A DNA stretch of 64,000 nt from Granulosicoccus sp. Its GTDB lineage: Bacteria; Pseudomonadota; Gammaproteobacteria; Granulosicoccales; Granulosicoccaceae. Of the stretch, positions 8,282 through 54,720 are shown piece after piece. The notes beneath the pieces were generated by a model. The model made no database searches, was not told the origin of the DNA, and saw only the letters and a list, made by a program, of their open reading frames with translations. Location of the stretch: NCBI GenBank assembly GCA_023301725.1, contig JALZUD010000017.1, forward strand, positions 51,357 through 115,356, written 5' to 3'. Within the stretch, counting starts at the first letter, position 1. The number at the start of each line of letters is the position of its first letter. A program made the position numbers and the translations under genes.

Positions 8282-8355
8282 GTGTCATTAATCCGAGTTT
8301 GTCAGAGACGATATGAACAGACGTCTATAGCCTGACCACTGTTACTGATTGTTAG

Positions 8356-9723
8356 CTAGTTTTTGGAAGGTCTTGTCCAATTATCGATATCGGTCTGTTT
8401 CGAACGCGTCAGTGAGAGCTTCTTTGCAGGTACATCGCGTGAGATAGTTGATCCAGCACCAACAGTGGCACCAGCTCCGATCTTAACTGGCGCAACTAAC
8501 GCCGTATTTGATCCTATATGCACATTGTCTTCCAAAACTGTCTGATGCTTGTTTGCACCATCATAGTTACACGTAATGGTGCCGGCCCCAACGTTCACAT
8601 TTTCCCCTAACACGGAGTCGCCGACGTAACTCAAATGATTAATCTTGCTACCTGCCCCAACCTGAGTATTTTTTGTCTCAACAAAATTACCAATGCGCGC
8701 AGCCTTCGCAAGTTCGGTCCCAGGGCGAAGCCTTGCAAACGGACCTACGTTAGCTGCTTGGCCCAGGCGTGCAGATTCGAGTACACAATTGGCATGTACG
8801 ATTGAGTCGTCCGCAATATGTGAGTCAGTGATAACACAGTTAGGGCCGATAACCACGTTGTTGCCCAACGTGCAATGACCTGTAAACACACAGTTAATAT
8901 CAATGCTGATATCTGTCCCGGTTTCAAGTGTGCCTCTAATATCGATGCGGGCTGGATCTGAAAGTGTGACACCAGAATTCATCAGCTGTTCTGCCAAATA
9001 GAGCTGATGCACACGTTCAAGAGTAGCAAGCTGTACTCGGCTGTTTACACCGTCTGTCTCTGAGGCGTCTTCTGGGTGCACCGCCTGAATACGAAGACCC
9101 TGCCTCACAGCCTGTGCGTGAATATCTGTCAGGTAGTACTCACCTTGCGCGTTGTCGTTACCTAGGTCAGCAAGCAAACTAAACAGACTTCTACCTTTGA
9201 TCGATACGACACCGGCATTAACCTCGGTGATAGTCAGTTGATCGGGGCTTGCGTCTTTCTGTTCAACCACACCGACAATCGCACCGCCTTCACGAACAAT
9301 GCGGCCATAACCTGAAGGGTCATCCATCATCAAAGTCAACAGGCCAATGGTCTGATCATCGCAGACATCAAGCAAGGCTTTATAGGTCGAGGCACGTGTC
9401 AAAGGCACATCGCCGTACGTGATCAGTACTGTGTCATCTTCAGCGATACCTTCGAGAGCTTGCTGTACAGCATGGCCAGTTCCCAATTGCTGTTCTTGTG
9501 CGGCCCATTGAACTGAGTGGTCCGAATTTTTGTTTATCTCAGTTTTTACCTGCTCTGCTTCATGCCCCACAACCACAGTGACACCAGCAGGATCAAGCGT
9601 TGCCAGTGTATCCAGAACATGGGTTAGTAGCGGCTTACCAGCCAGAGGGTGCAAAACTTTGGGCATCGCAGATTTCATGCGGGTACCCTTGCCGGCTGCA
9701 AGTACGATAAATCGGGTTGACAT
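8356..9723 (-). CDS. glmU: Bifunctional UDP-GlcNAc pyrophosphorylase / glucosamine-1-phosphate acetyltransferase
   Basis: Makes GlcNAc-1-phosphate from glucosamine-1-phosphate and acetyl-CoA, then UDP-GlcNAc with UTP, for peptidoglycan and lipopolysaccharide. The N-terminal nucleotidyltransferase domain begins with LAAGKGTRMKS (about residues 8-18) and holds YGDVPL. The C-terminal left-handed beta-helix shows hexapeptide repeats (about 250-430), with RLRPGTEL, HLSYVGDS and NVGAGTITCNYDG. Length 455 is typical. It is upstream of glmS on the same strand and separated from the ATP synthase operon by 716 bases, so it probably has its own promoter. Confidence 0.97.
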   Translation of the reverse strand: MSTRFIVLAAGKGTRMKSAMPKVLHPLAGKPLLTHVLDTLATLDPAGVTVVVGHEAEQVKTEINKNSDHSVQWAAQEQQLGTGHAVQQALEGIAEDDTVLITYGDVPLTRASTYKALLDVCDDQTIGLLTLMMDDPSGYGRIVREGGAIVGVVEQKDASPDQLTITEVNAGVVSIKGRSLFSLLADLGNDNAQGEYYLTDIHAQAVRQGLRIQAVHPEDASETDGVNSRVQLATLERVHQLYLAEQLMNSGVTLSDPARIDIRGTLETGTDISIDINCVFTGHCTLGNNVVIGPNCVITDSHIADDSIVHANCVLESARLGQAANVGPFARLRPGTELAKAARIGNFVETKNTQVGAGSKINHLSYVGDSVLGENVNVGAGTITCNYDGANKHQTVLEDNVHIGSNTALVAPVKIGAGATVGAGSTISRDVPAKKLSLTRSKQTDIDNWTRPSKN

Positions 9724-49332: not shown

Positions 49333-50580
49333 ATGACACCTTTTCAACGTCAATCTGGATCATTAATGGCAGGCCAGATGCGCTGCACTGATCTAGCTGA
49401 ACAATTCGGCACGCCACTGTATGTCTATGATCGCGCGAGTATAGAAGCTGCCTGGCAGGAGTTTGCCACGGCCTTGTCGGGTACCGATCACCTGATCTGT
49501 TATGCCGTGAAGGCAAACAGTAATCTGGGTGTGCTAAATGTGCTTGCGCAACTAGGTTCGGGTTTTGATATCGTCTCCATTGGCGAGCTGAAACGCGTTT
49601 TGGCAGCAGGTGGCGCTGCCGAGCGCATTGTTTTTTCAGGGGTTGGCAAGCAGACACATGAAATGGAAGCGGCGTTGGATGCTGGCATACGCTGCTTCAA
49701 TGTAGAGTCAGTTTCAGAGCTGAACCGTCTGGCCGAGGTAGCTGCAGCACATGGCACTCAGGCTCCGGTATCGCTGCGCATAAACCCTGATGTAGATGCC
49801 ATGACGCATCCCTATATCTCCACCGGTCTAAAAGAGAACAAGTTTGGAATCAACATGAGTGATGCCATGGGTGCGTATCGCCAGGCTGCTCAATTTAGCT
49901 CAATAGATGTGCATGGCATAGACTGTCATATTGGCTCGCAGCTTAGCTCGCTTGACCCCTACAGAGATGCCGTGAATCTGTTGGTGCAGATGATCGATAC
50001 ACTCAACGACGAGGGTATAAAGCTCAGCCATATTGATGTTGGTGGTGGTCAAGGCATTCAATACGCTGACGATGAACAGGCGCTTGATATACAAGCATGG
50101 GCTACGTGTGTAAAAGACGCTATTGGAGATCGTAAACTGCAGATAGTGGTTGAACCTGGGCGTTATATTGTTGGGCAGGCAGGGGTGCTACTCACTCGTG
50201 TGGAATGCCTGAAAAGCAACGAGGATAGACACTTTGCCATTGTTGATGCGGCGATGAACGATCTACTACGCCCCGCACTGTATAGCGCTTGGCAGGCGAT
50301 TGAAGAGGTAGAGACACTTGCGCGTGAACCTGCTGTGTACGATGTGGTTGGGCCGGTGTGTGAGTCAGCTGATTTTTTGGGTAAGCAGCGTACACTTGCC
50401 ATCGCTGAGAACGACCTGCTGTGCGTGCATTCAGCGGGTGCATACTGTTTTGCCATGAGTTCTAATTACAACACAAGGGCTCGTCCAGCAGAGGTCATGG
50501 TCGATGGCGACAAGGCTCATCTGGTGCGTTCAAGAGAAACAGTAGAGTCGCTGTTTGCTGACGAATTTCTGTTAACGTGA
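49333..50580 (+). CDS. lysA: Diaminopimelate decarboxylase
   Basis: PLP enzyme making lysine from meso-diaminopimelate. The PLP lysine is K60 in CYAVKAN; HIGSQ, GGGQGI and EPGRYIV mark the barrel; the C-terminal CESADFLGKQR holds the active-site cysteine from the neighbouring subunit. Length 415 is normal. It overlaps dapF by four bases (GTGA). Confidence 0.97.
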   Translation: MTPFQRQSGSLMAGQMRCTDLAEQFGTPLYVYDRASIEAAWQEFATALSGTDHLICYAVKANSNLGVLNVLAQLGSGFDIVSIGELKRVLAAGGAAERIVFSGVGKQTHEMEAALDAGIRCFNVESVSELNRLAEVAAAHGTQAPVSLRINPDVDAMTHPYISTGLKENKFGINMSDAMGAYRQAAQFSSIDVHGIDCHIGSQLSSLDPYRDAVNLLVQMIDTLNDEGIKLSHIDVGGGQGIQYADDEQALDIQAWATCVKDAIGDRKLQIVVEPGRYIVGQAGVLLTRVECLKSNEDRHFAIVDAAMNDLLRPALYSAWQAIEEVETLAREPAVYDVVGPVCESADFLGKQRTLAIAENDLLCVHSAGAYCFAMSSNYNTRARPAEVMVDGDKAHLVRSRETVESLFADEFLLT

Positions 50581-51410
50581 AGACGCTTGAATTTACCAAA
50601 ATGCATGGCCTGGGCAATGATTTCATGGTCCTTGACAACCGCAGTGGTGATATTCAATTTAGCACCGAGAACATCCGTGCCTGGTCAAACAGGTACACAG
50701 GCATCGGCTTTGACCAACTCCTGGTCGTGAAGGCAGCCAGCGTGGCTGACGCTGAATTTGACTATCAAATCTTTAATGCAGATGGCGAGGAAGTGGAGCA
50801 CTGTGGCAACGGAGCACGCTGCTTCGCGCGCTACGTACATGAGCGTGAACTTACTCACAGCCAGTCCATCCGTGTCAATACTGTGCGAGGAATCATCACG
50901 CTTCATCTGCTTGAGGATGGCCAAGTCAGCGTGCTGATGGGTGTGCCGCAGTTCGAGCCAGCAGCCATACCCTTTCTGGCAGAGCAGGTCAGTGATTTTT
51001 ATACCTTAGCAGTCGGTGATCAAAGCTTTCAAGTGGGCGCAGCGAGCATTGGGAACCCTCACGTGCTGCTAAAAGTGGACGATGTTGACCATGCCGAAGT
51101 CAGCAAACTGGGTGCTGCTATCGAATCTCATGAACGGTTTCCACGACGTGTGAATGTGGGTTTCATGCAAGTGCTGGATCGACAACACATGCGTTTGCGA
51201 GTGTTTGAACGCGGGGTTGGCGAAACCTTGGCTTGCGGCTCGGGAGCGTGTGCAGCGCTAGCGATTGCACACCGTCAAAATCTACTCGATAACACCGCTA
51301 TCGTGAGTTTGCCAGGCGGCGATTTGAAAATACATTGGCCAAATATGCAAGCTTCGATTGAAATGACGGGCCCATGTTCTACAGTCTTTGAGGGACAAAT
51401 AAAAATATAA
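50577..51410 (+). CDS. dapF: Diaminopimelate epimerase
   Basis: Interconverts LL- and meso-diaminopimelate for peptidoglycan and lysine. The two catalytic cysteines are C76 in HCGNGARC and C220 in LACGSGACA. It starts with GTG overlapping the lysA stop. Length 277 is typical. Confidence 0.97.
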   Translation: MKTLEFTKMHGLGNDFMVLDNRSGDIQFSTENIRAWSNRYTGIGFDQLLVVKAASVADAEFDYQIFNADGEEVEHCGNGARCFARYVHERELTHSQSIRVNTVRGIITLHLLEDGQVSVLMGVPQFEPAAIPFLAEQVSDFYTLAVGDQSFQVGAASIGNPHVLLKVDDVDHAEVSKLGAAIESHERFPRRVNVGFMQVLDRQHMRLRVFERGVGETLACGSGACAALAIAHRQNLLDNTAIVSLPGGDLKIHWPNMQASIEMTGPCSTVFEGQIKI

Positions 51411-51416
51411 CAGAAC

Positions 51417-52253
51417 ATGCAAGCTGAACCAACTGAAATAGGTACCGAAGCAGGCCGCACTATTTCCGATGCGGATATCGTAAAACACCTGTCTGGTCAT
51501 CCAGAATTTTTTGTTGAAAACAAAGAAATTCTTGCTGGCCTGAGAGTGCCACATGAATCAGGGGCAGCTGTCTCGCTGGTTGAGAAACAAGTCAGTGTTC
51601 TACGTAGTCGTTGTTCGCACCTTGAAAACAGCCTGCGTGATCTCATTGCGGTAGCACGACACAACGAGAATTTACACCAGCGACTGCACACGCTAATACA
51701 GGACGTGATTACTGTCCCTTCAATTGCTGAAATCGTCAGCCTTACACAGTCCAGCTTGCGTGAAAACTTCAGTGCCGAAGATGTGCATATTATGTTGATA
51801 GCACCAGCACCCAAGCGCACAAAGACTGCACGAAGCTCGCGCAAACGTAGCGACAAAGTCGTTGATGGCGTAACGGTCAACAAAAGCCCTGCAAAACCTG
51901 CCGTAAGAAGCCGGCCTGCCAAACTGCTGGATGTCGAGGGTGCAACGGTTGTTCGACACACAGACAAACGAATAAAGCATTTTAGTGATGTGTTTGATTC
52001 TGGAGAAACGGTGTGTGGCATGCCAAACACTGAGCAACTGATCGCTTTGCTTGGCAAGCGACACGGCGACGTTGCGTCAGCTGCGATCATTCCATTGCAG
52101 TTTGAGCGCAAGTTGGGCGTTATCATGCTCACCAGTAGAGACGAAGCACGCTTCAGTACAACAAAAGGCGTCATGTTTCTCAATCAGATGGGCGATTTAC
52201 TCAGTCGGCGTATACACAGCTATGGCATGCACCAACTGGTAGCCAGCAAGTGA
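51417..52253 (+). CDS. DUF484 family protein (YigA-like)
   Basis: Protein of unknown function that in gammaproteobacteria regularly sits between dapF and xerC, as here. The N-terminal motif DADIVKHLSGHPEFF and the VPHESGAAVSLVEKQVSVLRSR coiled coil are characteristic; the C-terminal half looks GAF-like (AIIPLQFERKLGVIMLTSRDEARF). A basic insert, SSRKRSDK with SRPAK nearby (about 140-170), breaks the GAF-like part. Its stop overlaps the GTG start of xerC (GTGA). Confidence 0.88.
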   Translation: MQAEPTEIGTEAGRTISDADIVKHLSGHPEFFVENKEILAGLRVPHESGAAVSLVEKQVSVLRSRCSHLENSLRDLIAVARHNENLHQRLHTLIQDVITVPSIAEIVSLTQSSLRENFSAEDVHIMLIAPAPKRTKTARSSRKRSDKVVDGVTVNKSPAKPAVRSRPAKLLDVEGATVVRHTDKRIKHFSDVFDSGETVCGMPNTEQLIALLGKRHGDVASAAIIPLQFERKLGVIMLTSRDEARFSTTKGVMFLNQMGDLLSRRIHSYGMHQLVASK

Positions 52254-53035
52254 TTGGCTTCCAAGAGGACATCAACAAGTATGTGCAAGAATTGCAGATA
52301 GCACGAGGTGCATCACCTCATACTGTCACTAACTATGCGCGTGATTTGAAGGCTGTGGCCAGATCGGCTACTTATCGAGAAATTGCTGATTGGTTGTCAT
52401 TGACGTCCCACGATATCAGCGCCATTGTTGCGCAGCAGCATAGTGAGGGAATTTCTGGCCGAAGCTTGTCAAGACGCTTGTCTGCGGTGCGAGGGCTATA
52501 TAATTTTCTCATCGCCAACTCGCAGATATCAACCAACCCTGCGCAGGATATTCTAGCGCCGACTGATACACATGCCTTGCCTGTTTCGCTGGCGATGAAA
52601 GACATGAGTCGCTCACTCACGCAACATCTGAATGATCCGATGACATGTCGTGATCTGGCCATGTTCGAGCTGATGTATTCATCCGGACTGCGCCTGGCAG
52701 AGCTTGTCAACATTGACCTAGTTGATCTTGATTTGAGTGTGGGTCAGGTTCGAGTGACCGGTAAAGGCGGTAAGGTACGGGATTTGCCGGTAGGAGAACA
52801 GGCAGTCGATGCGATTAACAAATGGCTTGGGTGTCGACGCAGCCTGCCGGGTGCAGACGAACGTGCAGTGTTTTTGAGTACTCGCGGAAAGCGTATTGCG
52901 CCACGAACGGTACAAATGCGACTCAAAAAACTGACAGAGACACAAGGCATTGAACGTGAATGTTATCCACACATGCCTAAGAAGCCTTTTGCAAGCCATT
53001 TACTGGAGCGTCGTGGATCTTTGAGTGCAGCTTAG
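52250..53035 (+). pseudogene. xerC: Degenerate XerC tyrosine recombinase, C-terminus lost
   Basis: XerC normally resolves chromosome dimers at dif with XerD. The core-binding N-terminal domain is intact (LQIARGASPHTVTNYARDLKA; LSRRLSAVRGLYNFL), as are the first catalytic arginine (R148 in SSGLRLAEL) and the hairpin lysine region GKGGKVRDLP. The HxLRH box, however, reads HMPKK, with Lys at 244 instead of the catalytic Arg and Lys at 245 instead of His. The frame stops at TAG 53033-53035, where the conserved Gln of AVQELLGH belongs. Reading on after the stop gives SLL, matching ELL, then similarity fades, so the third-box histidine and the tyrosine nucleophile are missing. It is almost surely inactive as a recombinase; the organism presumably uses another copy. 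Confidence 0.85.
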
Positions 53036-53061
53036 TCATTGTTGACTACAGTCCGCCATCT

Positions 53062-53105
53062 GTACTGCAAAAAAGCGTACTGTAAAAATCGTACTGTAAA
53101 AAAGC
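53062..53105. repeat. Three tandem ~15-bp repeats after xerC
   Basis: GTACTGCAAAAAAGC, GTACTGTAAAAATC and GTACTGTAAAAAAGC lie head to tail just past the premature xerC stop. They occupy the place where the lost recombinase C-terminus would have been encoded. Confidence 0.7.
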
Positions 53106-53118
53106 TTACTTCAAAGAA

Positions 53119-54720
53119 TCAGAGTGATACCAGCGAAAATTGACTAAACATGCCGTTACTTTGCATACAGTTGCGAAGTTGAATACGACGAGTACGACCA
53201 CCTTGGCTGGCGATTAATTTATCGCCATTATTATAGAGATAAGACGGCAACAAAATAGTTTGTAGCACCTGTGCATTGACTCGGCAGGCGACGATCAACG
53301 CGTTTTCAGCTATTGTTTCAGCTGAGGGTTTGCCTACCGTCTCGCCCATTGTTGTACCTGTGGGTTCGTCAATGGGCGCAACGATGGGTTCATCAATGGA
53401 GTTTGAGGATTCGGAGTCATTTTCCTTATCCAGCTGACGAGTGACAGCCACGGGTAAAACGGTTCGGGCCATGAACTCAACGCCCACCGTGATGCCCAAA
53501 GCACCTTCAGAACGAACCCAGCGAATGGTGCCTAGCAAAATATTGATGCGGCTACTGCTCTTGGAATTCTCATTAATTAAGGGTTCGCTGACGTCCGCGA
53601 TACTGACCAATTCGCCTACTTGCACCAGACCGGCACGGCAGCGTTTGTTATACAAACACAGCCCTTGCGGTGCACGATTGATCACTACCCATCCAGAATC
53701 GTCATCAGGAGCAATCTGCGTCGGTTTATGGGAAAGATGTGCACTTATTTCCTTATGGCCCAGAACCACGCGCTGTGGAATATCAGTGATGCTTCGCGCG
53801 CAACGCCTCTGCCGTGAACGTGACAAGGCTGAGTGCAATCGTGAAAGAGATTGTTTTTCCAGCGTATTCATGCCGGGAGCTGATCCGGCGTTTGCTTGAA
53901 TAAGTTTGGACAGATGATTGATACGGTACAAAACAGGCGCAACGCTGAACCATCTGACGTCTTCGTACTGCTTCCCCAGTAAGCTTAACGCAGGTTCGGG
54001 ACGTGAACCACGGCGAAGGTTAATAGCAAAATCGAACGGTGTGATGGTCTCCGCTTTTCTGTCGCGCTCAATATGAATATCCACCACCGTGCTGCGCAGA
54101 AAATCCATGATCAGAGGTAGTTGTCTGACGCGTTGCTGCTTGAGATCTGAGATGCACAAAAGCAAAATGTACCGATAATGATCCTGACAGCTTGGGAGCT
54201 CCGAGCTGCGCTGCCCAACAAGCAAATGATGCTCCTCAGCTAGGGCGTAGAGCTGATGTGCATCTTCGATCAAGGCATCAGGTATGTGTCGGTACGCATG
54301 AACCAAAGACTCGGCCTGACGTGCCAGAGCTTGCATGGCTCGGCGAGCGTCATCGGCTAGGGGTTTGTCACTGTCACTGAGCAAAATCTTGAATGCAAAA
54401 GCCTCCTCTCTGAGTAAGGCATCGCGCAGTCGGGCATGGCGCGCAAATTCGCGAGTAAGAGGCAGGGGCTGTGCATCACTGAGCTCGCTCAGATGGTTTT
54501 GCAGCTCGCGTAGTGTGGGCACAAAACAACTGATAACTAAGCGCCGATTGCTTACATCGTTATGCAGTCGGTTACTGTGCTTGAGTCCGCGGTAGACTTC
54601 GCGTGCATTGGCTTCGGACTGCAAAGGGCGCAGTTTGGACAGCCATTGTGCTACGCCTTCTGGATTTACCGGAAAACTGTCAGTGTCAGCTACGGTTCTG
54701 TGGGGGATACTAAGTTGCAT
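53119..54720 (-). CDS. Uncharacterised 533-residue protein, possible PilZ-like C-terminus
   Basis: I do not recognise this gene with certainty. The first 280 residues are helical and leucine/arginine-rich (NAREVYRGLKHSNRLHNDVSNRRLVI; LRELQNHLSEL). Around 345-430 a beta-rich stretch, SGWVVINRAPQGLCLYN, then a VGELVSIAD-like strand and LLGTIRWVRSEGALGITVGVEF, resembles the PilZ-like module of proteobacterial cyclic-di-GMP-related proteins, which is an inference. A low-complexity acidic insert with TMGET/TVGKP-like repeats (about 438-475) precedes a final beta-rich segment. It has no signal peptide or membrane segment. It is divergent from hslV and convergent with xerC. Confidence 0.6.
   Translation of the reverse strand: MQLSIPHRTVADTDSFPVNPEGVAQWLSKLRPLQSEANAREVYRGLKHSNRLHNDVSNRRLVISCFVPTLRELQNHLSELSDAQPLPLTREFARHARLRDALLREEAFAFKILLSDSDKPLADDARRAMQALARQAESLVHAYRHIPDALIEDAHQLYALAEEHHLLVGQRSSELPSCQDHYRYILLLCISDLKQQRVRQLPLIMDFLRSTVVDIHIERDRKAETITPFDFAINLRRGSRPEPALSLLGKQYEDVRWFSVAPVLYRINHLSKLIQANAGSAPGMNTLEKQSLSRLHSALSRSRQRRCARSITDIPQRVVLGHKEISAHLSHKPTQIAPDDDSGWVVINRAPQGLCLYNKRCRAGLVQVGELVSIADVSEPLINENSKSSSRINILLGTIRWVRSEGALGITVGVEFMARTVLPVAVTRQLDKENDSESSNSIDEPIVAPIDEPTGTTMGETVGKPSAETIAENALIVACRVNAQVLQTILLPSYLYNNGDKLIASQGGRTRRIQLRNCMQSNGMFSQFSLVSL

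Follow-up and report, generated by a model that had tools for sequence, protein, structure and literature searches.

How does a bacterium separate joined copies of its chromosome once its xerC gene has lost the catalytic end? XerC and XerD are the enzymes for this task, and few systems are as widely distributed on circular bacterial chromosomes as XerCD/dif. A truncated xerC gene raises this question in Granulosicoccus sp. The gene lies in the 64,000-base stretch analysed here (the window; positions 51,357 to 115,356 of contig JALZUD010000017.1), which belongs to a draft metagenome-assembled genome (MAG; G000) of 4.33 Mb in 148 contigs with 94.4% completeness. We compared it with the genome of a sister species (G019, 97% complete) and with the genus as a whole, represented by 27 genomes, 16 of which form a stricter subset (completeness of 90% or more, contamination of 5% or less). 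In both sister genomes xerD is lost and xerC has lost its catalytic part, relics of both genes remain, and a 417-residue recombinase with an intact catalytic set is under strong selection. In this lineage without xerD and without a catalytic XerC C-terminus, we consider that the strongly conserved, XerL-like tyrosine recombinase probably resolves chromosome dimers instead. No paper dealing with Granulosicoccus together with XerC was found in the literature searched, beyond which reports may exist.

The truncated gene stands where an intact xerC would be expected. Its position after dapF and the DUF484 gene, recognized in a first-pass annotation of the window, is borne out by the order of open reading frames (ORFs) and by matches to TIGR00652 and PF04340 (Table 1), and according to the ORF coordinates the DUF484 stop and the xerC start overlap by four bases. 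Against the XerC model TIGR02224 (295 positions, cut-off 335.15 bits), the product reaches only 226.5 bits, aligning to positions 2-257. The catalytic set R-K-H-R-H-Y is incomplete: Arg148, Lys172 and His241 are left, and the second Arg, the His of the LGH motif and the Tyr are gone, with HMPKK standing where aligned intact relatives have HMLRH. As the annotation had proposed, catalysis appears to be lost, and the truncated protein should be incapable of DNA cleavage. An identical 261-residue protein is listed in the protein database with a contig of 187,566 bases, compared to 115,356 for that of the window, together with two more truncated relatives, P0008 and P0075 (268 residues each), the former being the type found in G019. 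When aligned, all three truncated proteins have lost the second catalytic Arg and everything from the LGH motif on, and RAVFLSTRGKRIAPRTVQMRLKKL is identical in all of them. The truncation is therefore not a matter of chance, and an assembly slip, the alternative that the annotation itself had raised, is unlikely given the longer contig and the two further truncated relatives.

The annotation had taken the in-frame TAG for the decisive lesion, a view that the sister species does not support. When the xerC genes of G000 and G019 are each compared with four intact relatives, all 8 DNA alignments show an extra base at nearly the same point, give or take a few bases, the placement resting on alignments of decayed sequence. 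The TAG lies upstream of this frameshift point in G000 and is not present in G019. Since the insertion is common to both species while the TAG is specific to one, the simplest order of events is an ancestral frameshift followed by the TAG. A common deletion of LGHADIS, suggested by the protein-level alignment of the truncated proteins, was dropped because the DNA shows a one-base insertion. A split XerC with its C-terminus encoded elsewhere was also rejected, as no extra fragment occurred among the matches listed.

Contrary to the picture of a chromosome lacking merely XerC, xerD is lost too. Of the 27 genomes, 23 have a match to the XerD model over its cut-off; those below it are G000, G019 and the less complete G025 (81%) and G010 (63%), so that within the stricter subset XerD is absent only from the two sister species. 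A second xerC or xerD copy, which the annotation had envisaged as a substitute, was not found in the G000 genome by either PF00589 (three matches in all) or TIGR02225. In the four relatives laid out, xerD lies between dsbC-like and moeA-like genes. These two genes adjoin each other in G000 and G019, inside contigs of 103 and 59 kb, respectively, and Pfam confirmed the DsbC and MoeA domains in G000. Only scraps remain between them: a segment with internal stops matches XerD residues 275-307 in both species, although its best E-value is 3.5e-5 in G019 and only 0.035 in G000, with these two stretches alone as the database. Part of the former xerD place in G019 (L090, about 8300-8550) is occupied by a tandem repeat of 9-base units resembling AAAACAAGC/AAAACGAGC. 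A tree of DapF and DUF484 joins G000 and G019 as sisters (support 100/100) next to the XerCD-bearing G026. Outside the genus, two genomes of the same family (G029 and G030, 98% and 91% complete) gave one Xer-like match each to the query, and Xer losses may on this ground be commoner in the family.

RecA and the gamma domain of FtsK are retained. RecA exceeds its cut-off in all 27 genomes, and a loss of homologous recombination was rejected on this ground. The FtsK gamma domain occurs in 25 of the 27, with no difference between G000 and G019 along the compared stretch; its loss was likewise rejected. A dif pattern was matched perfectly in 11 of the 27 genomes. It has no match in G000 or G019, but this absence is weak evidence because a match is also missing from 5 of the 14 other genomes in their quality class. 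A linear chromosome with a telomere resolvase was rejected as well, PF16684 being found in none of the 27 genomes, a weak result since the control was found in only 1 of 14 known genomes.

Besides xerC, PF00589 detects two tyrosine recombinases in G000, namely an integron integrase near the start of contig C141 (L001, 211-1182) and the 417-residue protein on contig C116; the latter scores 22.5, under the family cut-off of 27.1. The 417-residue protein has 94% identity in G019 and 66% in G011 and G024. G023, a complete genome, contains broken pieces of the family only (L207, C1:252289-253121), and the protein was not found in the other 22 of the 27 genomes. In G000 and G019 the gene is flanked by a LysR-type gene and by a pair encoding a class IV aminotransferase and an aldo/keto-reductase, with further genes separating it from the aminotransferase in G000. 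Between the two species its ratio of nonsynonymous to synonymous substitution rates (dN/dS) is 0.026 at a dS of 1.27, below those of four housekeeping genes (DapF 0.065, DUF484 0.064, LysA 0.040 and HslV 0.038). The residues R244, K276, H363, R366, H388 and Y397 are invariant in 13 recombinase sequences, and the catalytic set is complete. No solved structure matches the protein by sequence; its predicted model resembles Cre best and XerA next, with low template modelling scores (TM-scores), and the last 49 residues are poorly modelled. The protein matches 1653 plasmid records. Seven stretches in viral contigs fit a pattern for its relatives, none of which was confirmed.

The best relatives in the plasmid collection among the matches listed come from Legionella adelaidensis (49.1% identity) and L. 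fallonii (45.9%). Legionellales have a single-recombinase system of dimer resolution based on XerL, which in L. pneumophila is lpg1867 with catalytic Y387 (PMC9765430); tig is lpg1862 in the same species (PMC5928044). According to the gene table of the plasmid database, the L. adelaidensis relative adjoins tig, and this synteny suggests that it is XerL. The system proposed here resembles XerL/dif in employing a large tyrosine recombinase, with Y397 in the place of Y387 and 49% identity to the recombinase beside tig, in the lack of XerCD, and in a dyad-symmetric candidate site about 30 bp long. It differs in that G000 and G019 are outside Legionellales, belong to a genus that otherwise has XerCD/dif, and still carry relics of xerC and xerD. 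As with XerS/difSL and XerH/difH (PMC5357621), one recombinase would replace two. The annotation had thought of a single XerH- or XerS-like system, and a single-recombinase successor is indeed the best supported reading; the candidate is, however, XerL-like and not XerS-like, with 32.5 bits against the XerS model NF003462 and a cut-off of 267. Tyrosine recombinases of large plasmids in Pseudomonas, Stutzerimonas and others belong to the same family (39-42% identity, alignment A2), and two of these plasmids carry the same half-sites directly upstream of the gene. In contrast to the plasmids, where gene and site are linked, the gene stands here on chromosomal contigs and the site of G019 lies elsewhere.

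A palindrome is the candidate site of the recombinase. The sequence AATATCCGATAT-N6-ATATCGGATATT is found directly upstream of the recombinase gene in G011 and G024, and the form AATATCCGA-N12-TCGGATATT precedes the gene by 34-57 bp in these two genomes and in two plasmids, one of Stutzerimonas and one of P. aeruginosa. In the latter (95,404 bases) the upstream copy is the only one within 4 mismatches. Altogether, the palindrome occurs within 60 bp in 4 of 13 homolog neighbourhoods and as a partial copy in one, that of a P. amygdali megaplasmid, about 1.3 kb upstream of the recombinase gene. Other strong inverted repeats beside two plasmid homologs (upstream in L226, downstream in L232) were rejected, as their letters are unrelated, and viral contigs gave 0 exact matches to the palindrome. 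Within the genus, a 20-base form is matched without mismatch in G011, G024, G018, G023 and, once, in G019. The G019 copy of AATATCCGA-N12-TCGGATATT has 1 mismatch and lies at L216:93-122, in a stretch without a long ORF and on a contig other than that of the recombinase gene. From these occurrences we infer that the palindrome is the site of the recombinase in the G000/G019 clade. The enzyme would bind both half-sites and exchange strands between the two palindrome copies in a chromosome dimer, probably with the assistance of the retained FtsK.

The stump of XerC behaves differently from a freely decaying sequence. Codons 1-237 form an open frame in both species with dN 0.133, dS 1.270 and dN/dS of about 0.10, and for this reason the stump is not a free pseudogene. 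By part, the ratio is about 0.058 for residues 127-237, about 0.10 for residues 1-110, 0.56 for a 16-residue linker and about 0.29 for the tail. These ratios and those of the four housekeeping genes are rough, with dS near saturation. The predicted fold is confident in the N-terminal domain, moderate in the core and unstructured in the tail, where the predicted local distance difference test (pLDDT) is about 29-36; XerD is the best structural match, with a low TM-score. Among the structures matching the Xer query is also chain 14 of PDB 9i5v (9i5v_14), whose name, ribosome-associated translation inhibitor, looks misplaced. Compared to the XerCD/dif system, the stump retains the place of xerC, the N-terminal domain and most of the core, but it lacks the second catalytic Arg, the LGH motif, the Tyr and a partner XerD. 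In Pseudomonas aeruginosa, deletion of xerC and mutation of its catalytic Tyr differ in effect, which points to a second function, possibly in transcription (PMC9431673). There too a non-catalytic XerC still has an effect, although that protein is a whole-length point mutant with XerD present and the one considered here is a natural stump without XerD. The suggestion that XerC acts only structurally thus gains from the purifying selection, and the stump may have been preserved for a role without catalysis, probably in DNA binding or regulation.

Several observations weigh against a replacement by the 417-residue enzyme. G011 and G024 have this type of recombinase alongside intact XerC and XerD, so the gene by itself is no mark of a swap. 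The palindrome is absent from the G000 assembly at up to 3 mismatches, and 8 of the 13 homolog neighbourhoods, those of G000 and G019 included, have no palindrome near the gene. The G019 copy lies about 90 bases from a contig end, and GC skew and counts of FtsK orienting polar sequences (KOPS) around it were uninformative about the terminus. The first 1.9 kb of its contig do not occur in one piece in G000, where only 200 bases match, on contig C25, and the G000 stretches examined contain no palindrome within 5 mismatches. A reversed control pattern with at most 3 mismatches was found at one place each in G019 and G016. In G018 and G023 the distance between palindromes and dif is 4.7-8.4 kb, and close to them is the gene of another, small tyrosine recombinase (about 260-300 residues) that is also present in G019; single copies, including that of G019, could for this reason have been left by a mobile element. 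Finally, constraint on the stump is relaxed: the XerC core is 89.2% identical between G000 and G019 as against 99.1% in the only intact pair with a comparable DapF identity, and the branches leading to the stumps in the XerC tree are long (0.18 and 0.28, with a stem of 0.32, compared to a median of 0.066).

The palindrome missing from G000, the co-occurrence with XerCD and the faster evolution of the stump would all fit a loss of XerCD/dif with no replacement, where dimers are tolerated or otherwise removed, the stump slowly decays and the 417-residue protein is a plasmid-type enzyme that has settled and serves another purpose. Such losses have been described in some large-genome proteobacteria; Carnoy and Roten list Legionellales, Saccharophagus and Colwellia as lacking dif/Xer (PMC2731167). 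We nevertheless regard this explanation as rather unlikely, with RecA and the FtsK gamma domain retained and with a recombinase whose dN/dS is the lowest among the genes compared. Neutral drift since the species split does not fit the stump either, as the proportions of nonsynonymous and synonymous differences (pN and pS) would then be nearly equal, whereas they are 0.12 and 0.61 in codons 1-237. One could instead suppose that the stump lost its function in a recent event, separate in each species, and that the low dN/dS still reflects its active time. In comparison with the intact pair L095-L098, pN/pS is raised in the N-terminal domain (0.201 versus 0.114) and in the core (0.109 versus 0.008), and by our own arithmetic from this one pair both contrasts would fit a stump free of constraint for roughly a tenth of the time since divergence. 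However, the xerC frameshift and the xerD loss are common to both species, the three related species-level stumps end near the same residue, and the tail has changed far beyond a tenth of the neutral amount (pN 0.288, pS 0.606). All this speaks for a loss long ago and for retention of the rest of the protein, and a recent loss seems improbable.

It is even harder to credit that dimers are resolved by the C141 integron integrase or by some further recombinase. The integrase is a complete enzyme (TIGR02249, 382.3 bits with a cut-off of 265), but no integron-integrase-like match occurs among the matches listed for G019, and similar matches are found in many XerCD-bearing genomes of the genus. As for an error of assembly or binning, the genomes are draft MAGs; against such an origin stand the protein records described above as well as the loss of xerD with relics in both genomes, and we consider it the least likely of these explanations.

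Replacement by the XerL-like recombinase is accordingly the reading we retain, and a more specific version of it can be offered tentatively, with confidence well short of even. In this version a XerL-like recombinase of plasmid origin assumed dimer resolution, xerD was eliminated, and XerC became a non-catalytic DNA-binding regulator that selection has maintained since before the species split. Within the genus, xerC and xerD can be seen both intact and as relics, and a probable replacement is present as well, so that the order of events can be dated. The plasmid relatives suggest a source of XerL-type resolvers, and the AATATCCGA-N12-TCGGATATT site makes the successor directly testable. If true, a catalytically dead XerC under selection would also allow the function independent of recombination that has been proposed for XerC in Pseudomonas to be tested in a natural setting.

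Table 1. Coordinates of features at the xerC locus of the window, and of palindromes near dif in two other genomes of the genus
Feature	Position	Strand	Remarks
dapF	50577..51410	+	Upstream neighbour and substitution-rate control; TIGR00652 279.4 bits (cut-off 114.65); dN/dS G000-G019 about 0.065
DUF484 gene	51417..52253	+	Upstream neighbour and control gene; PF04340 124.7 bits
Truncated xerC	52250..53035	+	261 aa, GTG start, TAG stop
xerC codons 1-237	52250..52960	+	Purifying selection; catalytic Arg148 and Lys172 present
Decayed xerC tail, codons 238-261	52961..53032	+	Remains of HxxRH box; 37.5% amino acid identity G000-G019
HxLRH box (HMPKK), codons 241-245	52970..52984	+	Second catalytic Arg lost
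TAG stop	53033..53035	+	Replaces the expected Gln codon in AVQELLGH; G000-specific
1-base insertion (approximate)	53041..53046	+	Frameshift in the LLGH codons; common to G000 and G019; 8/8 pairwise alignments
Palindromes near dif	L218 7454 and 11122 (G023); L217 11737 (G018)		

The gene order dapF-DUF484-xerC is thus kept at the xerC place. Convergent to xerC, at 53119-54720 on the minus strand of the window, lies a gene for a 533-residue protein without a Pfam or NCBIfam match, which is also kept downstream of xerC in G019.
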